Below are positions 25,451-46,912 of a DNA stretch of 64,000 nucleotides, piece after piece. Numbering within the stretch: position 1 is the stretch's first letter; each line of letters starts with the position of its first letter. The translations under genes and the position numbers were made by a program. Source of the stretch: Pedobacter caeni (GTDB lineage: Bacteria; Bacteroidota; Bacteroidia; Sphingobacteriales; Sphingobacteriaceae); the NCBI RefSeq assembly GCF_900129215.1, contig NZ_FQUQ01000004.1, positions 496,001 through 560,000 of the forward strand. Direction: 5' to 3'. The notes below the pieces were generated by a model. The model ran no database searches. It saw only the letters and a program-made list of their open reading frames with translations, and was not told the origin of the DNA.

Positions 25451-25495
25451 GGGACATTTGTCCCTCCAAGCAGCCAATAATCTCCCTTATATTCG
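25451..25495 (+). promoter_or_regulatory. Crp-type operator and -7 box, copy 1
   Basis: The perfect palindrome GGGACA-TT-TGTCCC (25451-25464) is centred 37.5 bases before the last base of the -7 box TATATTCG (25488-25495). If transcription starts 4-5 bases after the box, the centre is near -41.5. It drives the first GT2-like gene. This is the most symmetric of the seven copies. Confidence 0.85.
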
Positions 25496-25518
25496 TTTAG
25501 AGTATCATGACTAATATA

Positions 25519-26193
25519 ATGGAAAATTCAGCACCTCTAATTTCATGTATTTGCATCACGAATAACAGTCCACTTTCACTGCAAAGATCTTTGGCTTGTT
25601 TTGAGACCCAAGATTATCCAAATAAAGAACTGATCATATCATATCCAAAAAATGATTATTTAACTCGATTTATTGTAGATCAAATTACTTCCATTTCAGA
25701 TATTACAATTTCACGAATAGAACATTCAGAGAACGAAAACCTGGAGATCACCAGGAAGAATATCCTGGCTATAGCTAGTGGTGATTTCCTATGCACATGG
25801 AATCCAAATAGTTGGCACAACACGAACAGATTAAGCCTCCAGTATGAAGCTATCAAAAACACTCAATTTATAGCAAGTATTTTGACGCACATTACGCTTT
25901 TTGACATTAAAAGTAAACAAGCTTATTTTTCAAATCACTTTATTTTTGAAGAAACCTTGCTATTTGACAAGAGAACGCTTCGCTGGAAGGAGTCCTCGTC
26001 CGGTTATTTATCAGACAACAATCTTCTTTTTCATATTAAGAATAGCCCTTATTCTTACATCTATATTATTTCAGACACTAATCGTAATAATGAAAGAGAA
26101 TCAAGTCCTATTCTATCAGAGTTACCTACTGCAGATGAAACAACTAATCAGGAAATATATGAAATAACCAGTTTGGAATTTTACAGGCTTTAA
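25519..26193 (+). CDS. GT2-like protein with degenerate metal site, copy A
   Basis: About 224 residues. The N-terminus APLISCICITNNSPLSLQRSLACFETQDYPNKELIISYP follows the GT2 (GT-A fold) pattern P-L-[IV]-S-C-[IV]...Q-D-Y-P-N-x-E-L-I-I seen in the intact copies at 28.8 and 29.4 kb. Where those have HWDDDDWY, this protein has TWNPNSWH near residue 90, so the metal-binding D-x-D is lost. It also lacks the E-D base motif. It is probably not a working transferase of the usual kind; it may bind a partner or acceptor. The start at 25519 (MENSAP) is chosen because it leaves a leader after the predicted start site near 25500; the ATG at 25507 would leave only a few bases. Confidence 0.7.
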   Translation: MENSAPLISCICITNNSPLSLQRSLACFETQDYPNKELIISYPKNDYLTRFIVDQITSISDITISRIEHSENENLEITRKNILAIASGDFLCTWNPNSWHNTNRLSLQYEAIKNTQFIASILTHITLFDIKSKQAYFSNHFIFEETLLFDKRTLRWKESSSGYLSDNNLLFHIKNSPYSYIYIISDTNRNNERESSPILSELPTADETTNQEIYEITSLEFYRL

Positions 26194-26215
26194 CTTACCG
26201 TATATCTAATCAAAA

Positions 26216-26806
26216 TTAAACCAAACCGGCCTCAGAAATCCCAAGTACAACTTCTATCCAGCCATTTTCAATTATATTTCTATCTTCCAGAAGTTGTATA
26301 ATATACAAACTAATAAGCCTTCCATTTCCTTCTATAATTGTATATGGCCCTTTCTGGTTCTTGGCAAACAAAGTAATCCCTGACAACTGAACTGGTCTAT
26401 TATTATCTCTCATTGTTTCTGCTATATAACTAATTCGTTCATTCAGTTCAGGATTTTTTCTTAAGATATTCGCAGCATAACAAACACGGTAAGTATAATT
26501 ACTAATGGCAGCCAATTCACGTACAGGAAGTACATTTAATTGATTAAACGATATTTTATCTACCATAAGCAATGCCTTATACCATTGGGTATCCTCAGGA
26601 ATAAAATCCAATAAAGATAGATGATGCGATTTCAAAACACTGAAAATCGCTTTTCTTTCCAGTTCCAGATTACCACTTTTTAACCAGGCAAGAACCTGTT
26701 TCAAGGGCCCTTCGTTTAAAGCATTAAGAAATTCGCCACAAACTTCACCTACAGCCCAACAACGCATCATTTCCTGTTTATTAATTCTTTCAATCAGCAT
26801 CATCAA
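26216..26806 (-). CDS. Hypothetical protein with a ParB/sulfiredoxin-like EGNGR segment
   Basis: A 196-residue soluble protein I do not recognise with certainty. The C-terminal half holds KNQKGPYTIIEGNGRLISLYIIQLLED, which looks like the G-x-x-R box region of ParB/Srx-type nucleotide-binding domains (pattern EG-N/H-x-R). The N-terminal half is helical with many Leu. There are no membrane spans or signal. It is the only minus-strand gene within the GT2/WY block, convergent with GT2-like copy A (22 bases apart) and divergent from copy B. No Crp-type -7 box points its way from the nearby palindrome. It could be a modifying enzyme or a stray gene. Confidence 0.45.
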   Translation of the reverse strand: MMMLIERINKQEMMRCWAVGEVCGEFLNALNEGPLKQVLAWLKSGNLELERKAIFSVLKSHHLSLLDFIPEDTQWYKALLMVDKISFNQLNVLPVRELAAISNYTYRVCYAANILRKNPELNERISYIAETMRDNNRPVQLSGITLFAKNQKGPYTIIEGNGRLISLYIIQLLEDRNIIENGWIEVVLGISEAGLV

Positions 26807-26889
26807 TTCTAATTTACTTGTAAACCTTCATTTTAATATAAACCTAAATTAGAACAACTTTAAAAAGTTTAACAAAGGAGTTTAATTAT

Positions 26890-26934
26890 GGGACATCTGA
26901 CCCTATAATCCAAATTTCTTTAACGGTAAATTAG
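26890..26934 (+). promoter_or_regulatory. Crp-type operator and -7 box, copy 2
   Basis: GGGACA-TC-TGACCC (26890-26903) and the -7 box TAAATTAG (26927-26934), again with 37.5 bases from centre to box end. It lies before GT2-like copy B, whose leader would be about 30 bases. Confidence 0.85.
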
Positions 26935-26969: not shown

Positions 26970-27692
26970 ATGAATTCCAAGCATCCATTAATTTCGTGCA
27001 TCTGTCTTACCTGGAATAATGAAGCCAACCTTCAACGTGCTCTGGTTTGCTTTAAAGGTCAGGATTATCCCAATACTGAATTGATCATCGCCTATCCTGA
27101 CAACGATAATAAAACCAGATCGATCCTTGATCAGATTATGAATATTTCACCAATGAGGATTATACGAATAGAACATCCAAAACAAGAAAATAGAATTACC
27201 ACAAAAAACAATGCGATCAATATGGCAAATGGTTCTTTTATATGTATGTGGAAGGATGAACATTGGCATCATGTAAACAGAATTTCAGATCAATACAGAG
27301 TAATCAGGAACACCCCATTCCTTTCCAGTGTATTGATGCATATCCTGATATTTAACGTTAAGAACCAGCAGACTTTTCATTCTGGTTATCGGCCCTGGCA
27401 AGATACATTATTCTGCGAAAAACAAATGATGCTTCAGGCTTCTTATACAAAAATAGAAAGAGAAGATGACAGCGTTGTTATTGATTTCTTGTCTTATCAT
27501 AACAAATTATATCATATTACTGAAACCCCCCATTTATATGTTTTGATATACTATGGAAACAAGCATTATAAACAATCGAACTCCTATAATTATTTTCTAA
27601 AAAGCGAATTTACACCAGAAATTAACCAAACGGTGAAGGAACTTATTAATCCTGACCATTATGCGATGAATAATCAAAACTGGGACATTTGA
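26970..27692 (+). CDS. GT2-like protein with degenerate metal site, copy B
   Basis: A 240-residue paralog of copy A: HPLISCICLTWNNEANLQRALVCFKGQDYPNTELIIAYPDNDNKTRSILDQI. In place of the HWDDDDWY metal motif it has CMWKDEHWHHVNR near residue 93. The Asp/Glu pair there (K-D-E-H) is not D-x-D. A conserved block GSFICMWKDEHWHHVNRISDQYRVIRNTPFLSS lines up with copies A and C, suggesting these three form a subfamily under common selection. The protein ends N-W-D-I, with the last codons inside the next Crp-type operator. No membrane spans. Confidence 0.75.
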   Translation: MNSKHPLISCICLTWNNEANLQRALVCFKGQDYPNTELIIAYPDNDNKTRSILDQIMNISPMRIIRIEHPKQENRITTKNNAINMANGSFICMWKDEHWHHVNRISDQYRVIRNTPFLSSVLMHILIFNVKNQQTFHSGYRPWQDTLFCEKQMMLQASYTKIEREDDSVVIDFLSYHNKLYHITETPHLYVLIYYGNKHYKQSNSYNYFLKSEFTPEINQTVKELINPDHYAMNNQNWDI

Positions 27693-27726
27693 CCCTTTTT
27701 CAAACACTAGAACTTGGTTAAGTTTA
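27682..27726 (+). promoter_or_regulatory. Crp-type operator and -7 box, copy 3
   Basis: GGGACA-TT-TGACCC (27682-27695) with TAAGTTTA at 27719-27726. Spacing is again 37.5. The palindrome covers the last codons and stop of GT2-like copy B (W-D-I-stop). It would drive the first WY small protein and GT2-like copy C. Confidence 0.82.
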
Positions 27727-28020: not shown

Positions 28021-28698
28021 GTGAGACTAAGCTACCCGTTAATTTCCTGCATTTGTATGACAAGCTATAAAAGCAGTATACCTCAAAAAACTATTGATTC
28101 TTTTTCCTTACAAAATTACCTAAATAAAGAGCTCGTTATTTCCTATTCCAAAAAGGATTTACAGACAAAAGAGCTAATCAAAAAAGGATTAGACATAGGG
28201 ATTCGTATATTGGGTGTAGAACAGGAATCTAACGTCAATATATGGCATCAGGCTGTATCAAGGAGTCACGGCGATTATATCTGTATCTGGAATCCCATAG
28301 ATCTACACCATCCCAGTCGGCTTTCATTTCAATTCAATAGTATGGCGGGGCAAAATTACGACGCAAGTATTTTAACAAGGATCATATTGTTCGATCCCAA
28401 GACAGGACATTCTTATCTTTCCATTCCACATCTTTGGATAACCACCTTACTAAGTAAGAAGAGTATTTTCACAGAAATCAAAAAAAACAATATTGATGAT
28501 TGCACAAGCCTTGTAGGCCGTTTATCCTCTGCTCATCTCTTATATGAAATAGATAAGAACCCATTTCTATATGTGTACATTCCACATCATAGAATTCATC
28601 AGTTTTGTGAATCTCCGGATTTCTCCTCCTCCAAAGAGAGACCACTGACAGATAAAGATCAAAACAAGATGTTTTCTGCTGATTTTTGGGACTTTTGA
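28021..28698 (+). CDS. GT2-like protein with degenerate metal site, copy C
   Basis: A 225-residue paralog of copies A and B: LSYPLISCICMTSYKSSIPQKTIDSFSLQNYLNKELVISYSKKDLQ. The place of the metal motif reads ICIWNPIDLHHPSR near residue 90, without D-x-D. The start is GTG at 28021; it lies 11 bases after the small M-x-W-Y gene and matches the N-terminal length of the paralogs. It ends D-F-W-D-F-stop, with those codons inside the next Crp-type operator. It is the most diverged of the three (L-N-K-E replaces P-N-x-E). Confidence 0.72.
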   Translation: MRLSYPLISCICMTSYKSSIPQKTIDSFSLQNYLNKELVISYSKKDLQTKELIKKGLDIGIRILGVEQESNVNIWHQAVSRSHGDYICIWNPIDLHHPSRLSFQFNSMAGQNYDASILTRIILFDPKTGHSYLSIPHLWITTLLSKKSIFTEIKKNNIDDCTSLVGRLSSAHLLYEIDKNPFLYVYIPHHRIHQFCESPDFSSSKERPLTDKDQNKMFSADFWDF

Positions 28699-28732
28699 CC
28701 CTACAAAGCCGAACAGCAATTTATTAATTTTA
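28688..28732 (+). promoter_or_regulatory. Crp-type operator and -7 box, copy 4
   Basis: GGGACT-TT-TGACCC (28688-28701) and TAATTTTA (28725-28732), spacing 37.5. The palindrome overlaps the W-D-F-stop end of GT2-like copy C. It precedes the two intact GT2 genes. Confidence 0.82.
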
Positions 28733-28760: not shown

Positions 28761-29423
28761 ATGACCGAATTACCACTTGTATCTTGTATCATGCCAACTG
28801 CCAACAGGCAAAAATTCATTCCTCTGGCACTGGAGTACTTTCTAAATCAAGACTACCCTAACACAGAACTCCTGATTATAGATGATGGCATCACACCCAT
28901 AGGCAATATCATTCCCGAAAACCTTAAAATAAGATATTTCTACTCCAGTCCATTGGGAACTATTGGTACAAAGCGAAATTATGCCTGTGAAAGAGCAAAG
29001 GGTGAAATCATTATGCATTGGGACGACGACGATTGGTATGCACCAGACTGGATTAGCAGACAAGTAGCTCATATCAGCAAATCAGATGCTGATATTACTG
29101 GCCTAAATCGCGTTATGTTTTATTCTCCTTCGGTAGAAAAACGCTGGATCTATGAAGATACAGATTCAGAAAAGCCCTGGATCTGTGGAGCAACAATGGC
29201 TTATCACAAATCTTTTTGGCAAAAGCATCCTTTTATTGATATCCAGGTTGGGGAAGACTATGATTTTGTATGGAACTCAGGAGCCAAGATATCAGCTTTG
29301 GATTACACTACCGGCTTCATATCCATTCTCCATGCACACAATACAAGCATAAAACCTGTAGAAAACATCCGCCACAAAAAAACAGGAGCAACCTGGAAAG
29401 AACCAACTAAAGAAAATACATAA
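28761..29423 (+). CDS. GT2 family glycosyltransferase, intact metal motif
   Basis: A 220-residue GT-A fold transferase. ELPLVSCIMPTANRQKFIPLALEYFLNQDYPNTELLIIDDG is the nucleotide-sugar-binding entry; GTIGTKRNYACERAKGEIIMHWDDDDWYAPDWISRQV carries the metal D-x-D near residue 88; WICGATMAYHKSFWQKHPF and VGEDYDFVWNSG (E-D base motif, about 163) follow. All parts of an active enzyme are present. It is soluble, without membrane spans, shorter than most GT2 enzymes, and the tail ends just after TGATWKEP. The target sugar and acceptor are unknown; the close small proteins are candidate acceptors, but this is inference. Confidence 0.87.
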   Translation: MTELPLVSCIMPTANRQKFIPLALEYFLNQDYPNTELLIIDDGITPIGNIIPENLKIRYFYSSPLGTIGTKRNYACERAKGEIIMHWDDDDWYAPDWISRQVAHISKSDADITGLNRVMFYSPSVEKRWIYEDTDSEKPWICGATMAYHKSFWQKHPFIDIQVGEDYDFVWNSGAKISALDYTTGFISILHAHNTSIKPVENIRHKKTGATWKEPTKENT

Positions 29424-29425: not shown

Positions 29426-30118
29426 ATGACATCCCCACTTGTATCTTGTATTATGCCTACGGCTAACCGGCAAAAGTTTATACCGCTTACTGTCGAATAC
29501 TTCCTCCAACAGGATTATAAAAATGCAGAACTGATAATTATTGACGATGGAAAAGAATCAATAAAGTATCTAATTCCAGATCACCCCAAAATCAGATATT
29601 TTTACACATCTCCAATGAGTACTATTGGAATCAAACGTAATTACGCCTGTGAAAAGGCAATCGGGGAGATCATCATACATTGGGACGATGATGATTGGTA
29701 TGCATCAGACTGGATCAGCAGACAAGTAAAGGCATTGGAAGAGTCTAAGGCCGATATTTGTGGATTAGATAACATTACCTTCTTTTCTCCTCTGGTAGGC
29801 AAATTCTGGAAATATGTAGATAGTGGAAATGAGCGTCCCTGGTTATCCGGTGCGACGTTTGTCTATCGAAAAAGCTTCTGGAAACAACATCCCTTCAAAG
29901 ACCTGCAGGTTGGGGAAGACTATGATTATATATGGAATTCAGGAGCTTCACTTTTTGCACACAACTATCATGATGGTTTTATAGCTACCCTCCATGCAGG
30001 GAACACCACCTTGAAACCCTTTGAGGACCCAAGACACAAAAAACATGCAGAAAGATGGATGGAAGTTGAATTTCGCGGGAAAGCCGAAAACCTTGAAAAG
30101 AGTAGGCAAGACAAATAA
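29426..30118 (+). CDS. GT2 family glycosyltransferase, second intact copy
   Basis: A 230-residue close paralog of the gene two bases upstream: SPLVSCIMPTANRQKFIPLTVEYFLQQDYKNAELIIIDDG, GEIIIHWDDDDWYASDWISRQV near residue 87, WLSGATFVYRKSFWKQHPF, VGEDYDYIWNSG near 163. Both transferase motifs are complete. The C-terminus is longer and charged (DPRHKKHAERWMEVEFRGKAENLEKSRQDK). The two-base gap gives translational coupling. The pair differs mostly between motifs, so they may act on different acceptors. It is followed 11 bases later by an M-x-W-Y small protein. Confidence 0.87.
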   Translation: MTSPLVSCIMPTANRQKFIPLTVEYFLQQDYKNAELIIIDDGKESIKYLIPDHPKIRYFYTSPMSTIGIKRNYACEKAIGEIIIHWDDDDWYASDWISRQVKALEESKADICGLDNITFFSPLVGKFWKYVDSGNERPWLSGATFVYRKSFWKQHPFKDLQVGEDYDYIWNSGASLFAHNYHDGFIATLHAGNTTLKPFEDPRHKKHAERWMEVEFRGKAENLEKSRQDK

Positions 30119-30129: not shown

Positions 30130-30417
30130 ATGCCCTGGTATCAATTTATTAACAACAACATGGACATCTGTGATCCTCAGAGTTACAAAATTCTTGAGCA
30201 GGCACCAACAACGACTGATGGCCCCTATTTATGCGCAATCTTCGCCGATGAAATCCCAGGCGATCCTGACCAAAAACCTGATCTGGAAGGAACGCCCGGA
30301 TTGTTATTTTATATTATCCGAGCACTTGCAAAAGGGAAAGGGCAACCTGTATCAGTCTTTCCACCGGTTCCATTAGAAGTAAAAATGTCTCCATTTCCTG
30401 CTTCTGGAAATATCTGA
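30130..30417 (+). CDS. Small M-x-W-Y protein, divergent copy 2
   Basis: A 95-residue protein starting MPWYQFINNNMDICDPQSYK. It keeps the M-P-W-Y start, the D-P...S-Y step, and GPYLCAIFAD that aligns with C-x-x-x-x-C-A-I of the array, but loses most of the rest. It ends Pro/Val/Phe rich (SVFPPVPLEVKMSPFPASG). No signal or span. It follows the second intact GT2 gene by 11 bases, the same gap as between the other divergent copy and GT2-like copy C, so a GT2/WY pairing recurs. Role unknown. Confidence 0.65.
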   Translation: MPWYQFINNNMDICDPQSYKILEQAPTTTDGPYLCAIFADEIPGDPDQKPDLEGTPGLLFYIIRALAKGKGQPVSVFPPVPLEVKMSPFPASGNI

Positions 30418-30444: not shown

Positions 30445-30489
30445 GGGACTTTTGACCCTATTAGAGCACTTAAAACTATCGTAAATTAG
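30445..30489 (+). promoter_or_regulatory. Crp-type operator and -7 box, copy 5
   Basis: GGGACT-TT-TGACCC (30445-30458) and TAAATTAG (30482-30489), spacing 37.5. About 95 bases of leader separate it from the first array gene; the leader is repeated before the other array genes. Confidence 0.84.
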
Positions 30490-30588
30490 TATTGTAATTA
30501 TAAAAAAGGGAAAAGCTGAAAACCTTTAACAGAGTAGGCATTCACTAAAGTTTTTGCTGTTTTTTGATTTAGAAAAACATCTTATATT

Positions 30589-30831
30589 ATGGCATGGTAT
30601 ATTTACAATGGAATAGGTGATCCTTTTATCCCCTCCAGTTACGTTAAAACCACAATAACCCCAACCTGTACAAATGGCTGTATCATCTGTGCAATTGACC
30701 TGGTAGATACCACAACTGTTCCAACCACGGCTTTTAATCAAAACAGAATTGATTATATCGCAAATGCTTATGCGAGTTCCGCAGAGCAGCCTGCGGGTTC
30801 TACAATATTTGTTAAGTTAAGGTGTACTTAA
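30589..30831 (+). CDS. M-x-W-Y small protein, array copy 1
   Basis: 80 residues: MAWYIYNGIGDPFIPSSYVK, then TPTCTNGCIICAIDLVD, TTAFNQNRIDYIANAY and a final strand TIFVKLRCT. Cys at 27, 31, 34 and near the C-terminus. The protein is Thr/Ser-rich, without signal or membrane span. The compact pattern suggests a small beta-rich domain. The family is not known to me. It has its own Crp-type promoter and a leader of about 95 bases, and is followed 62 bases later by copy 2. Confidence 0.8.
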   Translation: MAWYIYNGIGDPFIPSSYVKTTITPTCTNGCIICAIDLVDTTTVPTTAFNQNRIDYIANAYASSAEQPAGSTIFVKLRCT

Positions 30832-30893
30832 TAGAGTCACGTATTCTTGAAAGTTCTTGCAGTTTCTTTTTGATTTAGAAAAACATTTATAAT

Positions 30894-31139
30894 ATGGCTT
30901 GGTATATTTACATAGGTATAGGCGATTCTAGTATTCCATCCAGTTGCATTAAATCCACCTTAAATCCGACTTGTATAAACGATTGTATTATCTACGCAAT
31001 TGATCTGGTAGATAATACTATTGTTCCAATAACTCCTTCCAACCAAAACGGAGTCGAACGTATTTCAAATGCTTATACTAGTTCACAGGTACAACCGTTT
31101 GATTTTCAAATTTATGTTAGGCTAAAATCAAAATGTTAA
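30894..31139 (+). CDS. M-x-W-Y small protein, array copy 2, drifting
   Basis: 81 residues: MAWYIYIGIGDSSIPSSCIKSTLNPTC. Compared with its neighbours the G-D-P motif is G-D-S, the S-Y is S-C, and the C-A-I is Y-A-I (Cys34 lost). The upstream leader is cut to its 3' half and there is no Crp-type palindrome. It is still an open reading frame, so it may be at an early stage of decay or have a changed role. It likely depends on read-through from copy 1. Confidence 0.65.
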   Translation: MAWYIYIGIGDSSIPSSCIKSTLNPTCINDCIIYAIDLVDNTIVPITPSNQNGVERISNAYTSSQVQPFDFQIYVRLKSKC

Positions 31140-31144
31140 AAGAT

Positions 31145-31189
31145 GAGTCATCTGGCCCTGCTACATCACTTAAAACGATCGTAAATTAG
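31145..31189 (+). promoter_or_regulatory. Crp-type operator and -7 box, copy 6 (weaker palindrome)
   Basis: GAGTCA-TC-TGGCCC (31145-31158), with the right arm kept better than the left, and TAAATTAG (31182-31189); spacing 37.5. A stretch around it (CACTTAAAACGATCGTAAATTAG) is nearly the same as at copy 5, showing that the operator was duplicated with the cassette. Confidence 0.75.
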
Positions 31190-31298
31190 CAATAAATTAC
31201 ACTAAAGACTCCAAAAGAGGGAAAAGCTGAAACCCTGAAAAGAGTAAGCATCCATTAAAGTTTTTGCTGTTTTTTGATTTAGAAAAACAGTCTACAGT

Positions 31299-31544
31299 AT
31301 GGCTTGGTATGCATATAATGGTATAGGAGATCCTTTTATTCCATCCAGTTACGTAAAAACAACAACAAACCCGACCTGCACAACAGGGCCATTCGTTTGT
31401 GCGATTGACCTGGTAGACAGTACTACTATTCCGACTACCGCTTTTAATTACAACAGGTTGGATTACATTGCCAATGGATTAGCGACTTTAACGCCTCAAC
31501 CAACAGGCAGTCAAATCTATCTTTACCTGAAAGGGTGTTTTTAA
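31299..31544 (+). CDS. M-x-W-Y small protein, array copy 3
   Basis: 81 residues: MAWYAYNGIGDPFIPSSYVK, TNPTCTTGPFVCAIDLVD, TTAFNYNRLDYIANGLATL, ending QIYLYLKGCF. Cys at 27, 34 and one next to the end. All core positions are kept. It has a Crp-type promoter and full leader. The Ser/Thr density in the middle is high, so it could be an acceptor for O-linked sugar, but no direct sign exists. It heads the transcript that includes copies 4 and 5. Confidence 0.8.
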   Translation: MAWYAYNGIGDPFIPSSYVKTTTNPTCTTGPFVCAIDLVDSTTIPTTAFNYNRLDYIANGLATLTPQPTGSQIYLYLKGCF

Positions 31545-31697
31545 CAAAAAATTAAGATAGTACAACACCGACTATTAATAGTAAAGAATATTTTTTGCCA
31601 ACCAGCAAAAGAGAAAGGGGAAAGCTGAAAACCCTGAACAGAGTAAGCATCAATTAAAGTTTTTGTTGCTTTTTGATTTATAAAAGCACCCTATAAT

Positions 31698-31940
31698 ATG
31701 GCATGGTATGCATATAATGGTGTGGGAGATCCTTTTATCCCATCCAGTTACGTAAAAACAACAATGAATCCAACTTGCTTAGGCGGGTCTTCAGTTTGTG
31801 CAATCGATCTGGTAGACAGTACCACTATTCCGACTACCGCTTTCAACCAGAATAGATTGGACTATATCGCCAATGGATTAGCTACTTTAACAGCACAACC
31901 AGCAGGTAGTCAAATCTATCTTTACCTGAAAGGTCAATAA
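31698..31940 (+). CDS. M-x-W-Y small protein, array copy 4
   Basis: 80 residues: MAWYAYNGVGDPFIPSSYVK, MNPTCLGGSSVCAIDLVD, ending QIYLYLKGQ. It is nearly identical to copy 5 (differences at a few codons), and the leaders are also almost the same, so the pair is a recent duplication. No palindrome precedes it; expression is expected from the promoter of copy 3 unless the leader is enough. Confidence 0.8.
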   Translation: MAWYAYNGVGDPFIPSSYVKTTMNPTCLGGSSVCAIDLVDSTTIPTTAFNQNRLDYIANGLATLTAQPAGSQIYLYLKGQ

Positions 31941-32055
31941 GCTAAAGCAATACCGCTAAATAGCAAAGAATAAAGGGGAAAGCTGAAAACCCTGAACAGA
32001 GTAAGCATCAACCAAAGTTTTTGTTGCTTTTTGATTTATAAAAGCACCCTATAAT

Positions 32056-32298
32056 ATGGCATGGTATGCATATAATGGTGTGGGAGATCCTTTTATCCCA
32101 TCCAGTTACGTAAAAACAACAACAAACCCAACTTGTTTAGGTGGTTCTTCAGTTTGTGCGATCGATCTGGTAGACAGTACCACTATTCCGACTACCGCTT
32201 TTAATCAAAACAGATTAGACTACATTGCTAACGGATTGGCTACTTTAACAGCACAACCAGCAGGTAGTACAATCTTTCTTTATCTAAAAAGTTTGTAG
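32056..32298 (+). CDS. M-x-W-Y small protein, array copy 5
   Basis: 80 residues: MAWYAYNGVGDPFIPSSYVK, TNPTCLGGSSVCAIDLVD, ending TIFLYLKSL. 18 of 80 residues are Ser or Thr; Cys are at 27 and 34 only. It is the last gene of the array and is followed by a strong hairpin terminator. The nearly identical copy 4 lies 115 bases upstream. No signal peptide, so secretion by Sec is unlikely. Function unknown. Confidence 0.8.
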   Translation: MAWYAYNGVGDPFIPSSYVKTTTNPTCLGGSSVCAIDLVDSTTIPTTAFNQNRLDYIANGLATLTAQPAGSTIFLYLKSL

Positions 32299-32318: not shown

Positions 32319-32351
32319 AAGCCCAGGAATGAATTATTCCTGGGCTTTTTG
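32319..32351 (+). terminator. Rho-independent terminator closing the array
   Basis: AAGCCCAGGAAT pairs with ATTCCTGGGCTT around GAATT-type loop, with a T-run. It ends the array and separates it from the sigma factor gene. Confidence 0.92.
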
Positions 32352-32415
32352 TATTATACAAATAAATATTTATTATTGCTTTAAGCTCAATCTTCACAAT
32401 TTAAGCATTCACATT

Positions 32416-32994
32416 ATGAACTCATATCATTCATTAACTGATATAGAATTAACCAGCCTGCTTAAAGGAGGAGATTACAATGCTTTTAATGAAATTTACA
32501 ATAGATTCCAGGGACTTTTATTTATCTATGCTTGCAAAATAACAAAAGATAATGACGAGGCAGAAGATATTGTTCAGGAAGTATTTCTTTATTTATGGGA
32601 TAAGAGACTAAGCATAAAGCTACATTCTACCATATCTTCTTACTTATACTCTGCAGTCCGATATAAATTCTTCAACCTGCTGGACCACAAAAAAATCAGA
32701 ACGGACTATAGAGTCTCTTTTCAACACTTCCTTAATCTGGGAGAAAATATCACAGATAACTACATCAGAGAAAAAGAATTCAACACCCTCATAGAGAAAG
32801 AAATATCAGCTTTACCGGATAAAATGAGGGAAGTATTCGAGTTAAGCAGAAAATTAAATCTCTCCAGAAAAGAGATTTCAGCCCAATTAAATATCTCAGA
32901 AAAAACAGTCAAGAACCAAATAAATAGTGCTTTAAAGATCCTTAGAAAAAGATTAGGACTATTCGCTTTCTTAATCTTATTATTAAATAGATAA
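32416..32994 (+). CDS. ECF-type RNA polymerase sigma factor
   Basis: A 192-residue sigma-70 family protein of the SusC/FecR-linked ECF group. Region 2 is DYNAFNEIYNRFQGLLFIYACKITKDNDEAEDIVQEVFLYLW, including the -10-contacting D-x-E-D-I-V-Q-E-V-F-L motif. Region 4 is LPDKMREVFELSRKLNLSRKEISAQLNISEKTVKNQINSALKILRK, a helix-turn-helix. A longer reading frame begins at 32329, but the Met at 32416 (MNSYHSLTDIEL) gives the normal family length. It would be held by the FecR-like protein downstream and activate the SusC operon on a surface signal. Confidence 0.93.
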   Translation: MNSYHSLTDIELTSLLKGGDYNAFNEIYNRFQGLLFIYACKITKDNDEAEDIVQEVFLYLWDKRLSIKLHSTISSYLYSAVRYKFFNLLDHKKIRTDYRVSFQHFLNLGENITDNYIREKEFNTLIEKEISALPDKMREVFELSRKLNLSRKEISAQLNISEKTVKNQINSALKILRKRLGLFAFLILLLNR

Positions 32995-38063: not shown

Positions 38064-38069
38064 AAAAGA

Positions 38070-39518
38070 ATGAAATCTATAAAAATACTTTTGCCTGTAT
38101 TGCTCATTAGTTTAATACTGGCTTCGTGCAAAAAGTTTGTGGACATAAAAAAGATTAGCAATCAGAGTTTTCTGACCACAGCAAATGACTGCCAGTTGTT
38201 ACTGGACAATTATGATTACATGAATACAGGCTATCCATTGGATGGAGAAGTATCTGCAGACGACTATTATGTTCTCAGTGACAGCTATAAAGAAAATGTA
38301 ATTCCGAAGATACCACTGGAAGAACAGGATCTTTATGCCTGGCGGCCCGGAGCCAAACGAAACCTGGCTGACCCAAACTGGCAAAAACCTTACTTTGTAA
38401 TCTACAATGCCAATCTGGTCCTCGAGACTCTGGCAAAAATAAACCCTGCGACAGAAGATCCAGGTCTTCTAAATACCTTAAAAGGGAGCGCCTTGTTTTA
38501 TAGAGCTTATGCTTTGTGGTTTGTTGCTCAGTTGTATACAAAGCCATATTCTGCCTCCACTGCAGATCAAGATCCTGGCGTTCCCGTAAGAACCAGCTCT
38601 GATATGAATGTTGAATCATTACGAGGAACTGTAAAAGAGACTTACAACAGTATGATCAGGGATTTGTCCGAGGCATTGAACTTACTACCATTAACCTCGA
38701 ATATTCCATCAAGGCCTAATAAAGTGACCGTTTACGCTATGTTGGCCCGCTTATATCTTTCGATGGAAGATTATCCAAATGCTTTGATTAATTCAAACGA
38801 GGCATTAAAGCTCAAAAATGACTTGTTAAATTACAATGGAATAAGTGCTGTTTCCGCCAGCCCCTTTTCTCGTTTCCATAAAGAAGTCATTTTTCATTCC
38901 ATTAATTATTATAAATCAACCAACCCTGCTGTAGGAGCAATATTGTATCAGGGTTTTGCTTTTAACAACATTGCAAAAATAGCCCCTGATCTGGTAGCAT
39001 CTTATGGAACAAATGACCTGAGAAGAACGATTTTTTTAAAAATAAATTCCGGTATCCATGCCCAAAGCTATCGGTTCACGGGAAATTATGAGCAGGCTTT
39101 TAGCCCGGCACCTACATTTTTTAACGGGTTGGCAACAGATGAAATGTATCTGATCAGCGCAGAGTGTCATGCAAGAGCTGGAAATATCCCTGAAGCGGCT
39201 AAAGCCTTAAATACACTGCTGATTACCAGATGGAAAACCGGAACCTATGTTGATATGAGTTCTACAACTCCGGCAGAGGAAGCATTGAGAAAAATCCTTG
39301 AAGAACGCAGGAAAGAATTGCTAATGCGGGGCCTAAGATGGACTGATCTCCGCAGATTAAATAAGGATAACCGATTCAAAAAAGATCTGGTAAGAAAGAT
39401 GATCATTAATGGAACAGAAACCATTATCGGCAGCCTGCCCGCGAATGATCCCAGGTATACACTGCTTATTCCAGATGAAGTCATTAAAAACAGTGGCTTA
39501 GCACAAAACTTAAGATAA
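38070..39518 (+). CDS. SusD/RagB family substrate-binding lipoprotein
   Basis: A 482-residue lipoprotein: signal MKSIKILLPVLLISLILASC with Cys in an L-A-S-C lipobox, then KKFVDIKKISNQSFLTTANDCQLLLDNYD. TPR-type helices (GSALFYRAYALWFVAQLYTKPYS; VTVYAMLARLYLSMEDYPNALINSNEAL) and a C-terminal EERRKELLMRGLRWTDLRRLNK box mark SusD. It would sit over the mouth of the SusC barrel and capture the ligand. The gene starts seven bases after SusC, as is standard. Confidence 0.93.
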   Translation: MKSIKILLPVLLISLILASCKKFVDIKKISNQSFLTTANDCQLLLDNYDYMNTGYPLDGEVSADDYYVLSDSYKENVIPKIPLEEQDLYAWRPGAKRNLADPNWQKPYFVIYNANLVLETLAKINPATEDPGLLNTLKGSALFYRAYALWFVAQLYTKPYSASTADQDPGVPVRTSSDMNVESLRGTVKETYNSMIRDLSEALNLLPLTSNIPSRPNKVTVYAMLARLYLSMEDYPNALINSNEALKLKNDLLNYNGISAVSASPFSRFHKEVIFHSINYYKSTNPAVGAILYQGFAFNNIAKIAPDLVASYGTNDLRRTIFLKINSGIHAQSYRFTGNYEQAFSPAPTFFNGLATDEMYLISAECHARAGNIPEAAKALNTLLITRWKTGTYVDMSSTTPAEEALRKILEERRKELLMRGLRWTDLRRLNKDNRFKKDLVRKMIINGTETIIGSLPANDPRYTLLIPDEVIKNSGLAQNLR

Positions 39519-39523
39519 AAAAA

Positions 39524-40909
39524 ATGCACAAAAAAATAACACTAACGCTTGTTTCCATATTTATACAAATAAGTACGATAACTGCGCAACAAACTTTGAA
39601 TATTTCTGGAAAAACGAAACCTATTGCCGGGTTGTCCAATTTAAATATTGGTGATTCTTTACCAGATTTTTCAATCCCAAAAATCATCAATACACCTAAA
39701 TCAACCGCAAAAACATCTGAATTTAAGGAGCAATTACTTATCATCGATTTTTGGTCTATTTACTGTAGCGGCTGCATAGAAGCATTGCCAAAAATGAATG
39801 CTCTGCAGAAATTATTTGGCAATAAAATCAAAATATTACCCGTGACTTATGAGTCTGAAGCATTGGTCTCTGAATTTTGGAAGAAAAATAGGAATACCAA
39901 AGGATTGGGCTTACCATCAGTTGTAGAAGATCAGATTTTTGCATCTTACTTCAGGCACCAAACTATTCCTCATGAGGTCTGGATATATAAAGGAAAAGTT
40001 ATTGCAATCACTACCTCTCAATATGTCGATGAACCCAACATTAGAAAGGTCCTCAACGGAGAATCGATCAAATGGCCTCCAAAAAACGATTTTTATCAAT
40101 TCGATGGAAATAAGGAGTCTTTGTTTAAACTACAAGATGCAGCGTCAAAAGCAAATGCAACTCACCTGAAATATGCTATAACAGGAGCATACAAAGAAGG
40201 TGTAAATTCTGAGGGTTTATCAGGCGGCGTAGGAATAGTGCGAGATTCCATCCATAAAACTGTCCGCACATTCTTTTTAAACCAGGATATTTATACAGCT
40301 TATCTCCTCAACTGGGCAAAAAAGATTAACCCATATCAATTAGTTAAACCTTCATTTTCTAACATACCGAATCAAGTGGTATGGGAAGTTGAAGATAAAT
40401 CCAGATACTTCTATGATCCTAAGACAAGCTACCTCGCGGAATGGATTCGTGGAAACGGAATATGCTTCGAATCGCTGAATCCGGATACAGGGCAAACAGA
40501 CAAAGAAATTGCTTCTACCACTATAACAGATATGAATCTCTTGCTTGGATTAAATGTGAGATGGGAAAAAAGAAAAGAAAAAGTACTTCTTCTCATCTTG
40601 AAAAGGGGAGGCGAAAAACTCAAAAGCAGCAATAACATTAAAAACAAGGAGGATCATCTGGTCAACAAAAATGGTATACAGTATTTTAGGTCCCTTCCAT
40701 TGTCAACATTAACATATAAACTAAACCAACAAAAAGAAAATCCATATGTGTTTGATGAAACAAATTATAATGAGGCTGTAGACCTTGACCTTAAAATCCC
40801 ATCCTGGACCGATATTCCGGCAATCCGTAAAGCACTTGCTAAGTACGGACTGGATTTAATAGAAGAAGAACGAATGGTAGATAAATTCGTATTCACAACA
40901 ACCAAATAA
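39524..40909 (+). CDS. TlpA-like thioredoxin-fold protein with DUF3738-like C-terminus
   Basis: A 461-residue exported protein. After the signal (ITLTLVSIFIQISTITAQQ) comes a thioredoxin fold: GDSLPDFSIPKIINTPKSTAKTSEFKEQLLIIDFWSIYCSGCIEALPKMNALQ, with C-S-G-C in the active-site position near residue 83, unusual for the normal C-x-x-C (C-P-P-C/C-G-P-C). The second half (LPLSTLTYKLNQQKENPYVFDETNYNEAVDLDLKIPSWTDIPAIRKALAKYGLDLIEEERMVDKFV) resembles DUF3738/TIGR03435. Bacteroidota Sus loci often carry such fusions next to SusC/D. It likely handles thiols or binds a ligand in the periplasm. It begins six bases after SusD. Confidence 0.8.
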   Translation: MHKKITLTLVSIFIQISTITAQQTLNISGKTKPIAGLSNLNIGDSLPDFSIPKIINTPKSTAKTSEFKEQLLIIDFWSIYCSGCIEALPKMNALQKLFGNKIKILPVTYESEALVSEFWKKNRNTKGLGLPSVVEDQIFASYFRHQTIPHEVWIYKGKVIAITTSQYVDEPNIRKVLNGESIKWPPKNDFYQFDGNKESLFKLQDAASKANATHLKYAITGAYKEGVNSEGLSGGVGIVRDSIHKTVRTFFLNQDIYTAYLLNWAKKINPYQLVKPSFSNIPNQVVWEVEDKSRYFYDPKTSYLAEWIRGNGICFESLNPDTGQTDKEIASTTITDMNLLLGLNVRWEKRKEKVLLLILKRGGEKLKSSNNIKNKEDHLVNKNGIQYFRSLPLSTLTYKLNQQKENPYVFDETNYNEAVDLDLKIPSWTDIPAIRKALAKYGLDLIEEERMVDKFVFTTTK

Positions 40910-40934
40910 CAAACTATACTAAAACCAAAAAAAA

Positions 40935-42134
40935 ATGAAACAAGTAAAACTAGCCCTTGTATGGGGCGCATTGCTCCTTATAATAAGCAGCTGCAAAAAG
41001 GGAGAAAAAATAGACGAACCTATCTTACCAAAAGTCCTAATGGTCAGTTCATTTGCAGGGGGAGAAGGAAATGCTTACCTCGACGGGCCTAAAGGTGTAA
41101 ATGCATTTTACCAACCCAATGGAATCACCACAGACCTCTCCGGAAACATGTATGTTGCTGACAAGATCAATTGTTCCATTAGAAAAATTACTCCTGACGG
41201 GACCGTGACAACTATTGCGGGCAAAGGAGGGAAAGAAGAATTTGAATTTGCCGGCCTGGTGGATGGAACAGGAGCTAATGCTCGTTTCCGTGCGCCGACA
41301 GGTATAAGATCCGATGCTTCCGGAAATTTATACGTAGTTGATCAGGGAAATAATTGCATCAGAAAAATTACATCTGAAGGGGTAGTAACGACCCTTGCTG
41401 GTGGGGCGGGAAATGGTTTTGCTGATGGACCGGGAGCGACAGCAAAATTCAACAATCCACAAGATATTGCTGTAGATGTTGCCAACAACCTATATGTAAC
41501 AGATTATGGTAATAACCGAATCAGGAAAATTACTCCTGCCGGAGTGGTAAGCACCTATGCAGGAACTGGAGTTCAATCTACATCTGATGGCCCCATTGCC
41601 ACTGCGAGAGTTAGAAGTCCGTTTGCAATAAACATTGATCCTACTGGAATTATTTATTTTTCCGAAGAAAGTGGAGGGCAGCTTCGAAAAATTGCTGATG
41701 GGATAGTCACGACTTTGGTTCCCTTTCCCGGATATGTTGATGGCCCAGTAGCACTTGCTGCAGCTGATAAAATAGCCGGAATAGCAATTGATGCTAAGGG
41801 CGACGTGTATGTCTCGGATCAAAACAATGCTTTAATCCGAAAAGTAAGTTTCATAAATGGGATTGGAGTAATAAAAACCATAGCAGGAATAAAAACAACC
41901 AGTGCTGAGCGTTCTTTGGCAGCATTTAAACCAGCCAATGGATTCGCTGATCAAACTAAATTTGTGGCAATTTTTGGACTTACTATCGATAAACAGGAAA
42001 ATCTCTACGTTGCAGATGCCGGCAGAGGTGGTCAGATTAAAAAGATCAGCTTAGAAACAGACCCAAGAGTACCACAGGAAAGTAAAGAGACCAAGGATGC
42101 CAGGCTTTGGAATAAACCAATAGGCTGGAAATAA
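40935..42134 (+). CDS. NHL-repeat beta-propeller lipoprotein
   Basis: A 399-residue lipoprotein: signal LALVWGALLLIISSC with lipobox I-S-S-C, then about six NHL repeats, each like FYQPNGITTDLSGNMYVADKINCSIRKITPDGTVTTIAGKGG. The series D-x-x-G-N-[LM]-Y-V-[AS]-D-x-x-N-x-x-I-R-K-I recurs from residue 55 to 375. The end ETDPRVPQESKETKDARLWNKPIGWK is basic. It would bind a ligand or partner at the cell surface, as NHL-type propellers do next to SusCD pairs. It is 25 bases after the TlpA-like gene. Confidence 0.85.
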   Translation: MKQVKLALVWGALLLIISSCKKGEKIDEPILPKVLMVSSFAGGEGNAYLDGPKGVNAFYQPNGITTDLSGNMYVADKINCSIRKITPDGTVTTIAGKGGKEEFEFAGLVDGTGANARFRAPTGIRSDASGNLYVVDQGNNCIRKITSEGVVTTLAGGAGNGFADGPGATAKFNNPQDIAVDVANNLYVTDYGNNRIRKITPAGVVSTYAGTGVQSTSDGPIATARVRSPFAINIDPTGIIYFSEESGGQLRKIADGIVTTLVPFPGYVDGPVALAAADKIAGIAIDAKGDVYVSDQNNALIRKVSFINGIGVIKTIAGIKTTSAERSLAAFKPANGFADQTKFVAIFGLTIDKQENLYVADAGRGGQIKKISLETDPRVPQESKETKDARLWNKPIGWK

Positions 42135-42175
42135 ACAATAAAAAAATGACAATAAATATTATAAAACATATAGAA

Positions 42176-42730
42176 ATGAAAAAACTCATACTCAGCGTTG
42201 CCTTTTCCCTCTTCATATTGTCTGTAACAGCACAAGACAAAATTGACCCTCAAAAAAAATCTCCCGAAATGAATACAAAACAAAACATCAATAGATTTCA
42301 ATTGTCAATTGGTCTGGACGAAGGTATTCCAGTTGGAGAATTATCTAAATATTCTTCTTTTGTAATGGGAGCATCAATACAGGGTGAATATGCCGTCCTT
42401 AAAGAACTTGGTTTAACTCTAAGTGCCAATTACCTTTATTTTCTTGGCAAAAATGGCAGGACAGGTTTGTCTTTTGTACCAGTTTTAGCAGGTGCCAAAT
42501 TTTACCTCAGCCGAAAAATATATATATCTGGTCAATTGGGAGCAGCAATGTATATTGGTCAGGACAGTGAAGATGACACTTATCTATCTTATGCACAAGG
42601 CATTGGATTCCAAGCTTCAAATAGAATTGACCTGTTAGCAAAATATGAAGGTATAAATATTGGAGGTTCAAGAACGTACTCTTTTGCAGGCCTTAGAATC
42701 GCCTATAATTTGTTTAAACGGAAAAAATAA
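42176..42730 (+). CDS. Outer-membrane beta-barrel protein, Sus-locus member
   Basis: A 184-residue barrel protein: signal MKKLILSVAFSLFILSVTAQ, then FQLSIGLDEGIPVGELSKYSSFVMGASIQGEY, GLTLSANYLYFLG, VPVLAGAKFYLSRKIYISGQLGAAMY, and the end GGSRTYSFAGLRIAYNLFKRKK. It is of the porin-like outer membrane protein type (PF13568-like). The frame is open 10 residues further upstream; the Met at 42176 gives the signal. It closes the Sus operon, with no strong hairpin immediately after. Confidence 0.75.
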   Translation: MKKLILSVAFSLFILSVTAQDKIDPQKKSPEMNTKQNINRFQLSIGLDEGIPVGELSKYSSFVMGASIQGEYAVLKELGLTLSANYLYFLGKNGRTGLSFVPVLAGAKFYLSRKIYISGQLGAAMYIGQDSEDDTYLSYAQGIGFQASNRIDLLAKYEGINIGGSRTYSFAGLRIAYNLFKRKK

Positions 42731-44441: not shown

Positions 44442-45650
44442 ATGAATCCCAGGGTTTCCTGCATCACATCTGTTACTGATGACAATATGGCCCTCCTAAA
44501 AGCAGTTTCTATTTTTGTAAATCAGGAATATCCAAACCTCGAACTGATCATCGTTAAGTCTGGCGGAATTTCTGTGGGAGAGCTCCTGCCAGATTATGAA
44601 GGACTTCATTACATTTATAGAAGGAAACGGCTCAGCCAGGATGAAATGTTCAATTTGGCTTGCGAAAAAGCCGCAGGGGAAATTATCCTTCATTTGGATG
44701 AAGGATGTTGGTATAGCAAGACTTGGGTAAGTCGCCAGGTCAATGCCCTGATGGGCTCAAAGGCTGATATCTGTGGCTTAAACAAAGAAAATGGACTCCC
44801 CATCTCATTCGATATGGAAGAAAAAAATCCGGAACAGGTAACCTGCTGGATACTGGCTTCGACGCTATGCTACTGGAAAAGTGTCTGGACAAATTATCCA
44901 TTCAGGAAAGGTGATCAGGATACGACAACAGATTTTGTTTTGAATGCCGGAGCAGGAATCTATGTTCATAGCAACTCCGAAGGATATCTGGGAGCACAGA
45001 TTTTTATTCCGATTCCAAATAAACGAACAATGTTCCCTTTAGTGTCCTGTATCATGATGACTAAGGATCTTAAAACCTTCCATACCTATACGATTAAACT
45101 TTTTCTTGCTCAGGATTATGATAACCTGGAGCTAATCATTCTCGATGATGGAAAAAGTGCTGCACCTGAGCTGATTTCTTCTTACAAAAAACTGAAATAC
45201 TTCTATATTGACAGTAAGATGAGCACAGGGGCAAAAAAGAATATGGCCTGCGGTATGGCAAGAGGAAGCCTCATCTTACATTGGAATGATCAGGACTGGT
45301 ATGCCGACGACTGGATCAAATACCAGGTCAGCTCATTATTAACTTCAGGAGCAGACATTTCAGGACTAAACCTGGTTCGCATCTATGCTTTAGATGACAG
45401 GAGGTTCATAACCAATAAAAACGTGGAAAAGAATAATTCCTGGTTATATGGGGCAACAATGATTTATAAGAAACCAGTTTGGGAAAACAACAAATTTTTA
45501 GAAGTGCATTGTGGTGAAGATGAAGATTTCCTAAGCCAAAGCGGAGCCAAAATCTTTGCTCATAAATATCTTGATGGCTTTAACACCAATATACATGTGA
45601 AAGAGTTGGAAGATATGCCACCGGGCAATGATCATCCCTCATTGAATTAA
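44442..45650 (+). CDS. Tandem double GT2-like protein
   Basis: A 402-residue protein of two GT2 domains of about 200 residues. Domain 1: NPRVSCITSVTDDNMALLKAVSIFVNQEYPNLELIIVKSG and LHLDEGCWYSKTWVSRQV, a degenerate metal site. Domain 2 (from about 200): FPLVSCIMMTKDLKTFHTYTIKLFLAQDYDNLELIILDDG and LHWNDQDWYADDWIKYQV, plus WLYGATMIYKKPVWENN and CGEDEDFLSQSG. The W-N-D-Q-D-W keeps the D-x-D; E-D motif is present. It belongs to the same family as the genes at 25.5-30.1 kb. The start at 44442 (MNPRVSC) follows the GH78-like stop by two bases; the ATG at 44430 would overlap that gene. No Crp-type palindrome precedes it. Confidence 0.75.
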   Translation: MNPRVSCITSVTDDNMALLKAVSIFVNQEYPNLELIIVKSGGISVGELLPDYEGLHYIYRRKRLSQDEMFNLACEKAAGEIILHLDEGCWYSKTWVSRQVNALMGSKADICGLNKENGLPISFDMEEKNPEQVTCWILASTLCYWKSVWTNYPFRKGDQDTTTDFVLNAGAGIYVHSNSEGYLGAQIFIPIPNKRTMFPLVSCIMMTKDLKTFHTYTIKLFLAQDYDNLELIILDDGKSAAPELISSYKKLKYFYIDSKMSTGAKKNMACGMARGSLILHWNDQDWYADDWIKYQVSSLLTSGADISGLNLVRIYALDDRRFITNKNVEKNNSWLYGATMIYKKPVWENNKFLEVHCGEDEDFLSQSGAKIFAHKYLDGFNTNIHVKELEDMPPGNDHPSLN

Positions 45651-46019
45651 TCCATCCCTCTTTGCCAAAGCTGCATTTATTGCAGCTTTTTTATTGGCAG
45701 CAAACAGATAGACAGAAATTACCCCTTCTTCATTTTTTACCAGTTCCTGCTGTGCAAATTCGGTGTCTTCGATACTACATAATGTAAGTACTTCCAAAGG
45801 CCTGGAATTTTGTTCATCAAAACTAACCAGGTAAGGAATCCGCTCCTTATCACAAATAAAATTCGGATTAAAAGCGACTTCCATCACCTTCAACTTTTCA
45901 TTTCTTGAAAACCTCTTTCTAAATGCTTCTACTTTTTCTTTCGAGTCAAACACAGCTTCTATGTCATGCACATGCTCATAATCCCCATAGAAGACGATGT
46001 AAACCTTACGATCGCTCAT
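45639..46019 (-). CDS. Hypothetical protein
   Basis: A 126-residue soluble protein with no family I can name. The first part KVYIVFYGDYEHVHDIEAVFDSKEKVEAFRKRFSRNEKLKVMEVAFNPN is alpha/beta in pattern, with a repeat of aromatic residues at the start (V-Y-I-V-F-Y-G-D-Y), and the second part is similar in length (YLVSFDEQNSRPLEVLTL... SVYLFAANKKAAINAAL). It overlaps the end of the double GT2 gene by 12 bases and is divergent from the Crp-type gene, with a gap of 267 bases. Could be a small regulatory or modifier protein. Confidence 0.55.
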   Translation of the reverse strand: MSDRKVYIVFYGDYEHVHDIEAVFDSKEKVEAFRKRFSRNEKLKVMEVAFNPNFICDKERIPYLVSFDEQNSRPLEVLTLCSIEDTEFAQQELVKNEEGVISVYLFAANKKAAINAALAKRDGLIQ

Positions 46020-46286
46020 ACAATAAAATTAAAAATCTCCTGTCCCTACACAGGAAAACTATCCCCTATTTTGAGCGCTAAGCTATATAATTAGATTAAG
46101 TTTTTTACAAAAAAAAGCACACTGAACAGAATTGTGCAACTAATTGTAAAACAGTTGACAACCCACCTGTAAACCCGAGTGCAATCGGTCTCAACGGACC
46201 AATTCCCAGAGAAGGATTTGTTATTTTAGATAGCAGAAATCCAAGGGCATTTCTACTTATTTTAATGAACCGAATAACCTTTATAA

Positions 46287-46856
46287 ATGGAAAATGAACG
46301 TTTTTTCAATTCACTGGCAGGCACGAACAAACCAAGTAATGAACTCAAGACTCAATTTTGCAAAATGGTGGAAAAGGAAATCCGCCCAAAGAACCACACC
46401 ATCCTAAAAGCCGGACAGATTTGCGACAACATCTGGTTTCTTGCACAGGGTTTCGCAATGGCTTATATCGAAAAGGAAGACCGCAAGATCCCCTATTGCT
46501 TCTGGAATGAGAACGAAGTTATGGTTCCTGTAAACAGTTTTTTCAAACAGGTACCTGCGGATGGGTTCATAGAAATCATGGAAAAAAGCACTTTAATGGC
46601 CATTTCTTACCGGAACATGAAACAGCTAAGCGCAAATTTCCCGGAATTTAATCTCCTGATGTGTCACCTGGTGGAAGATATGCAATACGCAAGTGAAAAA
46701 AGGATTTTTAACCTCACTTCGATCAGTGCAGAAGAACGGTATGCACTACTGTTAAAGGAAGCTCCGTTTATCGTCAGAAAAACCTCTGTAGAACTGATCG
46801 CCACCTACCTTGGGGTTTCAAGAAAAACCCTGAATCGAATCCGGGCAAAAAAATAG
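46287..46856 (+). CDS. Crp/Fnr family transcriptional regulator
   Basis: A 189-residue protein: N-terminal cNMP-binding-like barrel (IRPKNHTILKAGQICDNIWFLAQGFAMAYIEKEDRKIPYCFWNENEVMVPVNSFFKQVPADGFIEIMEKSTLMAIS, about 30-125), a dimer helix, and a C-terminal winged helix-turn-helix with TSVELIATYLGVSRKTLNRIRAKK as the recognition part. It lacks the arginine/serine pair for cAMP phosphate (no R-x-A-T/S), so the ligand is probably not cAMP. Only 12 bases after its stop is a copy of the GGGACA-type palindrome in front of the MauE-like gene. It is the best candidate for the regulator of all seven sites. No such palindrome is before its own start. Confidence 0.88.
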   Translation: MENERFFNSLAGTNKPSNELKTQFCKMVEKEIRPKNHTILKAGQICDNIWFLAQGFAMAYIEKEDRKIPYCFWNENEVMVPVNSFFKQVPADGFIEIMEKSTLMAISYRNMKQLSANFPEFNLLMCHLVEDMQYASEKRIFNLTSISAEERYALLLKEAPFIVRKTSVELIATYLGVSRKTLNRIRAKK

Positions 46857-46867
46857 GAACCTATTTT

Positions 46868-46912
46868 GGGACATTTGGCCCTTTTTGCGAAGATGCCCTC
46901 ATCGTAACTTTA
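46868..46912 (+). promoter_or_regulatory. Crp-type operator and -7 box, copy 7
   Basis: GGGACA-TT-TGGCCC (46868-46881), TAACTTTA (46905-46912), spacing 37.5. It lies between the Crp-type gene and the MauE-like gene and gives the MauE-like gene a leader of about 35 bases. Confidence 0.85.

Follow-up and report, generated by a model that had tools for sequence, protein, structure and literature searches.

Does a palindrome that recurs at one exact distance from putative promoters define a regulon, and if so, which protein reads it? The question arises from a 64,000-nucleotide (nt) stretch of the Pedobacter caeni genome (contig NZ_FQUQ01000004.1, positions 496,001 to 560,000; hereafter the window, numbered from its first base), in which seven palindromes are associated with genes for GT2-like proteins, small WY proteins, and a MauE-family membrane protein, the last palindrome lying between crp, a gene for a Crp/Fnr-type protein, and mauE. 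Very probably, the palindromes are operators of that linked protein (46287-46856), which would activate a GT2-like/WY/mauE regulon in a manner resembling class II Crp activation.

Palindromes at fixed distances from the -7 box

Palindromes were picked by their core sequence, independently of any promoter box, and loci were picked by the presence of the regulator or a WY gene. The seven palindromes of the preliminary description were all recovered at their coordinates on the plus strand (Table 1), and an octamer of the form TAnnTT(N)R lies 23 nt past each of them, the palindrome centre being 37.5 nt before the octamer's last base, as had been claimed. The general form GGGACA..TGNCCC given for them is accurate for four of the seven; those at 28688 and 30445 begin GGGACT, and that at 31145 reads GAGTCATCTGGCCC. 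The gap between crp and the last palindrome is 11 bases rather than 12 (stop at 46856, palindrome from 46868). To speak of seven independent promoters was right as to the fixed spacing but overstated as to independence: the spacers of 30445 and 31145 are nearly identical and front duplicated WY genes, so that the 31145 promoter is a paralogous copy, and at most six independent cases are found in the window. Because TA..TT occurs there at a frequency of 0.0056 per base, six exact coincidences of spacing are not attributable to chance. Over the 7.83-Mb genome, GGGACWNNTGNCCC is found 15 times; each of the six copies in the window has a box at 23 nt, whereas TA..TT was found at 22 or 23 nt in none of the nine copies elsewhere in that genome. 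An eighth GGG...CCC palindrome at 25377 (GGGGCGTTTGCCCC plus a T run) has no box and resembles a terminator belonging to the ABC-transporter-type gene upstream.

The same spacing was found when relatives were scanned. Eighteen loci, 16 of the genus and two of other genera (G353 and G228), yielded 83 core-perfect palindromes, with G006, G018, G126, G141, and G143 giving one or two each. A box is present at 22 or 23 nt in 74 of the 83 distinct sites and at 38 nt in 33, 25 sites having both on opposite sides; a single site has none at 22, 23, or 38. Among 129 oriented strand-sites (16 loci), TA..TT was counted at 23 nt in 54, at 22 in 13, and at 38 in 20, with about 1.0 expected per position, and the top count at any spacing was 9 when the flanks underwent 300 mononucleotide shuffles, compared with 61 observed at 23 and 35 at 38. 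From 67 oriented strand-sites the consensus is GGGACATTTGACCC; the search itself had fixed ten of its positions or limited them to two letters. The extended operator, in orientation, is TTTT-GGGACATTTGACCC-T, with T at positions -4 to -1 before GGG in 59, 68, 60, and 63 of the 74 sites, respectively; CCC is followed by T in 68 of 74. For the 74 sites that have a box at 22/23, the first downstream gene is a WY gene in 21 cases, a GT2-like gene of type B in 17 or of type A in 11, and mauE in 14; nine others (one of the WY family by BLAST) and two sites with no called start in the following 330 nt make up the rest. The notion of a dedicated regulon is thus strongly supported: operator, spacing, regulator clade, and, broadly, the gene set are common to the 16 genus loci and the two other genera, and sequence comparison could hardly give the regulon and its geometry better support.

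Some counts tell against so uniform a picture. Nine of the 83 sites lack the 22/23 box, eight of them having the 38 box only, and the P values for spacing over strand-sites count orthologous sites as independent. In the window, the WY genes 30894, 31698, and 32056 have no operator of their own in front, nor is there a site upstream of crp itself. That the arrangement arose by chance, or simply by duplication of a single promoter block, is nevertheless scarcely credible. It is true that 30445 and 31145 are mutual copies and that many sites are orthologous, but the spacers of the 74 sites fall into 36 sequence clusters and those of the 33 sites with a 38 box into 14, and the spacing is therefore not explained by one duplicated ancestral block; the 36 unlike clusters are accompanied by differing downstream families and by sites in two other genera. 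Furthermore, none of 34 control strand-sites, having the same pattern elsewhere in the P. caeni genome and in other genomes, has a box at 22/23 nt; these control genomes include G015, which is regulator-positive by E-value and outside the clade described below.

It is also very improbable that the palindromes act in RNA, as hairpins or as terminators of the genes upstream of them. The window copies do sit behind genes, T runs follow several of the copies behind crp, and 25451 is terminator-like on the minus strand, but the yield of the terminator scan was that of chance (5 versus 5.0 expected), and such a scheme leaves a fixed distance to a promoter box unexplained. A hairpin would require positions 4 and 11 to pair, yet they are complementary at just 16 of the 74 sites, and intrinsic termination was rejected as a candidate function on account of these mismatched stems. 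As the T run comes directly after the crp-linked palindrome in several relatives, that palindrome could double as a weak crp terminator.

The linked Crp-type protein and its clade

The protein encoded at 46287-46856 is Crp/Fnr-like by homology, with a predicted N-terminal cyclic-nucleotide-binding-like domain, at scores below curated cut-offs. It matches PDB 3dn7, a "Cyclic nucleotide binding regulatory protein," in a profile comparison over residues 32-188 (E = 1.4e-13), its tail aligns with the tails of paralogues, and the NCBIfam CRP model matches it at E = 2e-7, far under the cut-off of that model. Not all of the evidence is equally favorable: PF00027 (E = 4.1e-5) reaches 23.9 bits versus a cut-off of 27.5, PF13545, for a C-terminal winged helix-turn-helix, reaches 13.6 bits versus 27, and the AlphaFold2 model, built from seven sequences, had a mean confidence (pLDDT) of 46 and was unusable.

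The sequence SRKTLNR is present in the recognition helix of 25 of 27 candidate orthologues, 23 of the genus and two of other genera, and those 25 proteins form one clade (support 100/98) among 52 rows; the clade label itself rests on the signature, and "25 of 25" is consequently partly circular. The corresponding helices of paralogues read [ST]..[TS]LSR at 21 parsed paralogue loci and in six of seven P. caeni paralogues read. Over 145 genomes of the genus, with the regulator defined by E <= 1e-40, 22 contain both regulator and WY genes, three the regulator only (G015, G016, and G129), two WY genes only (G114 and G025), and 118 neither (P = 1e-20). G015 and G016, which are outside the clade and without its signature helix, were kept in this count and thus work against the association. 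Motif strand-hits average 9.0 per genome in the 25 genomes with the regulator and 0.78 (maximum 5) in the 120 without it, counts that ignore genome size and kinship; at least six hits were found in 16 of the 25 and in none of the 120.

The 12 named loci in which an orthologue of the regulator was found represent P. polysacchareus, P. cryoconitis, P. hartonius, P. westerhofensis, and other Pedobacter, plus one Sphingobacteriales metagenome-assembled genome. The loci of the orthologues are similar in make-up, with GT2-like, tandem WY, MPWYQ, SusC- and SusD-type, FecR, extracytoplasmic function (ECF) sigma, thioredoxin-like, alpha-L-rhamnosidase-like, crp, and mauE genes; the G006 locus is a reduced version. 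In both other genera, G228 and G353, crp, mauE, GT2, and WY genes occur with sites. Within the genus, 20 of the 23 clade members have a site with a 22/23 box behind crp, two of the 20 being imperfect (six of eight core bases in G084 and seven of eight in G129). In G062 and G068 (L194 and L195), two tandem palindromes 36 bp apart precede mauE-WY, with CGAAATTAG in the box position. Sites far from the main locus precede a GT2-like gene in G013, G019, G023, and G024 and WY genes in G122.

Exceptions of several kinds speak against a simple one-to-one pairing of this clade with the operator. Among the 23 genus members of the clade, no site follows crp in G006, G062, or G068; mauE does not follow crp in G006 and lies elsewhere in the other two. 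Of the 17 remote places in regulator-bearing genomes, only six have a box at 22/23 nt (L109, L129, L130, L131, L137, and L138), the downstream genes at L137 and L138 being of no recognized kind, and the 11 without one include five copies of GGGACACGTGTCCC. G114 contains a single, isolated WY gene whose site is perfect and has its box at 22 nt (L237, about 8498), and the best Crp-type match in G114 lacks SRKTLNR; G025 likewise has WY genes without the clade. These two genomes, one of them with a perfect site, are what would be expected if the same operator and regulon were served by another reader, either a Crp paralogue, of which there is no shortage among the 39 Crp-type matches in the P. caeni genome (46287-46856 included), or a factor associated with the genes for ECF sigma and FecR within the conserved locus. 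We consider this unlikely, since motif counts and WY genes follow the SRKTLNR clade and the helices differ in the seven P. caeni paralogues read. An ECF sigma factor is disfavored, albeit weakly: BLAST detected no homologue of the window sigma or FecR genes in the 18 kb covered in G228, but a SusD-family gene stands at the edge of that stretch, and more of the locus may lie beyond it. By linkage, co-occurrence, and its clade-specific recognition helix, the 46287-46856 protein is the best candidate reader of the palindromes, and the case for this assignment appears strong; members of its clade would presumably bind the two half-sites as a dimer.

Operator position and the direction of control

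Bacteroidota promoters have TAnnTTTG at -7 and TTTG near -33, the latter having eluded identification in Flavobacterium johnsoniae according to PMC7366714, and the -7 box was mapped at -12 to -5 in Flavobacterium psychrophilum (PMC9723704). With the box so placed, a spacing of 23 nt gives an operator centered at -42.5 and one of 22 nt gives -41.5. Crp sites in Escherichia coli are centered at -41.5 in class II and at -61.5 in class I promoters (PMC5957442), and the class II position previously proposed is thus correct within 1 bp, relative to inferred start sites. The likeness to E. coli class II promoters consists of a palindrome at about -41.5 and a Crp-type proposed activator; the differences are the operator GGGACA-N2-TG.CCC, the TAnnTTTG-like -7 box of Bacteroidota, and a small regulon with its own paralogue in place of a global regulator. 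Nor do the sites conform to the canonical cyclic AMP-CRP operator, TGTGA-N6-TCACA, the consensus here being the one given above.

That no -33 element is needed had been suggested from the window, and 61 of the 74 sites indeed have a spacer whose first 12 nt contain no TTTG; the presence of TTTG in 13, compared with a shuffled expectation of 5.1, is a point on the other side, and some promoters may keep a -33 element that is perhaps weak rather than gone. Those 13 promoters would also suit a Crp-type protein that acts on the operator as a repressor, for example one that obstructs polymerase until a ligand relieves it, and a dimer at -41.5 could occlude as well as activate. Repressors usually tolerate more variation in the position of their sites, and the rigid 22/23-nt spacing in 74 of the 83 sites suits contact activation instead; repression therefore seems improbable, slightly more so than the existence of another reader. 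The exact spacing and the class II-like position fit contact activation, and it is likely that the SRKTLNR-clade protein activates: bound at about -41.5 or -42.5, it would act as class II Crp does, assisting a -33 contact that is weak or standing in for one that is missing.

The second geometry, which was not part of the preliminary description, has a box at exactly 38 nt, as in 33 of the 83 sites; the window example is 26890, which faces the minus-strand gene 26216-26806. A called gene is faced within 250 nt by 29 of the 33, and these genes belong to five families: RWAIGEV (7, including the window gene), LILSYAQ GT2-like (8), GT10-like (PF00852; 8), and two without a Pfam match (2 and 4 genes). 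The other four sites lie near the ends of stretches or have no called gene. Taking the box again as -12 to -5, the site would be at about -57 or -57.5 for the divergent promoters, and the Crp-type protein probably activates these too. Class I Crp promoters and divergent promoters similarly have a single palindrome upstream of a second, divergent promoter; here the distance is about -57, the arrangement is seen in 33 of the 83 sites, and it is combined with the class II-like geometry in 25. A distance of -57 is off any standard class I distance, and in this respect the geometry does not favor activation.

Genes of the regulon and DUF805b leaders

The GT2-like proteins are predicted GT2 glycosyltransferases by their PF00535 matches, which exceed the cut-off of 23.3 for the genes at 25507, 26970, 28761, 29426, and 44430; that at 28021 scores 19.8 and is below it. 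The WY proteins are 80-95 amino acids long, with W3 and I36 invariant and C27 and C34 present in at least 90% of 62 members. The AlphaFold2 model of a WY protein is of high confidence (pLDDT 92.6), and its best Foldseek match had E = 5.6; VIA-align found no relative. Nor did sequence searches provide a family: the best Pfam E-value among the 62 members scanned was 0.014, with at most two members agreeing on a family, no PDB sequence relative was found at E <= 1, and plasmid records contained no relative at E <= 1e-3. The WY proteins may be modified secreted products.

Table 1. Features of the window, by position (minus-strand entries as marked)
Feature	Position	Strand	Remarks
Operator GGGACATTTGTCCC	25451-25464	+	-7-like box TATATTCG, 25488-25495; precedes GT2-like gene 25507
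GT2-like protein	25507-26193	+	PF00535
RWAIGEV-type gene, conserved family without Pfam match	26216-26806	-	Divergent; proposed target of 26890 via the 38-nt geometry
Operator GGGACATCTGACCC	26890-26903	both directions	Boxes TAAATTAG, 26927-26934 (+, spacing 23), and TAATTTAG, 26851-26844 (-, spacing 38)
GT2-like protein	26970-27692	+	PF00535
Operator GGGACATTTGACCC	27682-27695	+	Overlaps 3' end of open reading frame (ORF) 26970-27692; box TAAGTTTA, 27719-27726; precedes WY gene 27749
WY small protein, 86 amino acids	27749-28009	+	
GT2-like protein 3' of WY gene	28021-28698	+	PF00535 match below cut-off
Operator GGGACTTTTGACCC	28688-28701	+	Overlaps 3' end of ORF 28021-28698; box TAATTTTA, 28725-28732; precedes GT2-like gene 28761
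GT2-like gene pair, adjacent	28761-29423, 29426-30118	+	
DUF805b leader RNA (RF02914)	30074-30108	+	5' of MPWYQ gene 30130
MPWYQ small protein, WY-family relative	30130-30417	+	
Operator GGGACTTTTGACCC	30445-30458	+	Box TAAATTAG, 30482-30489; precedes WY gene 30589
Further DUF805b copies	30506-30540, 31615-31649, 31973-32007; 31217-31250 (below gathering score)	+	5' of WY genes
Tandem array of five WY genes (30589, 30894, 31299, 31698, 32056)	30589-32298	+	
Degenerate operator GAGTCATCTGGCCC (7/8 core bases)	31145-31158	+	Box TAAATTAG, 31182-31189; precedes WY gene 31299
Crp/Fnr-type regulator, 189 amino acids, recognition helix GVSRKTLNRIR	46287-46856	+	Proposed activator
Operator GGGACATTTGGCCC between crp and mauE	46868-46881	+	Box TAACTTTA, 46905-46912
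MauE-family membrane protein	46952-47365	+	PF07291, E = 1.1e-26

Many of the tandem WY genes, in relatives as well as in the window, carry a leader matching the Rfam cis-regulatory RNA family DUF805b (RF02914), which, like the remote members of the regulon, goes beyond the preliminary description. Four of the five matches in the window region exceed the gathering score of 35.6 bits (43.9, 43.9, 40.5, and 36.2), the fifth scoring 27.7, and in nine stretches of relatives all 42 matches precede a WY-type ORF within 170 nt. The P. caeni genome has 11 matches, eight of them over the cut-off and five in the window; of the six outside it, two precede WF-type ORFs, one a WY-like reading, and three precede other short peptides (L245, L247, and L249, at G000:C22:243186, C16:58220, and C22:242489, the last just below the cut-off). 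In this last respect, 3 of the 11 matches differ from the association with WY genes. The three short peptides look like GG-leader precursors, and the RNA may therefore mark secreted peptide genes in general. Open-licence literature yielded no paper with DUF805b or "DUF805 RNA motif."

Between the WY genes and crp, the window (32329-42730) contains ECF sigma, FecR, TonB-receptor (SusC-type), SusD-type, thioredoxin-like, NHL-repeat, and barrel genes; these are kept in several relatives, and in the window no operator stands in front of them. A conserved 126-amino-acid protein without a Pfam match (45639-46019, minus strand) adjoins crp, as it does in G122, G153, G159, and both other genera.

To our knowledge, little has been mapped of how activators act at Bacteroidota promoters, whose -7 box is TAnnTTTG and whose -33 element is weak or unseen. 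In the open-licence literature, the titles and abstract openings listed showed nothing on this regulon, and no paper was found with any of three of the operator sequences or with Pedobacter in combination with MauE, Crp, and glycosyltransferase. Comparison establishes that the operator is held 22 or 23 nt from the -7 box where a GT2-like, WY, or mauE gene follows, and 38 nt from such a box where it faces a divergent gene. With 82 of the 83 sites from 18 loci at one or both of these distances, evolution has in effect made a measurement, and start sites can be predicted to the base from it. A candidate activator can also be named. Co-regulation further defines a previously unannotated gene system of WY mini-proteins, GT2-like enzymes, and MauE, and links DUF805b to those genes. 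The output would be a single unit, in which the enzymes, the mini-proteins with their two conserved cysteines, and MauE may, as the gene content hints, make modified small proteins. More tentatively, and with more doubt than confidence, one dimer activating both ways through two geometries could serve as a promoter ruler for the Bacteroidota polymerase, switching on a new system in which DUF805b-led tandem, cysteine-bearing WY mini-proteins of unmatched fold, together with paired GT2-like enzymes and a MauE-type protein, would give rise to glycosylated or oxidized secreted products.

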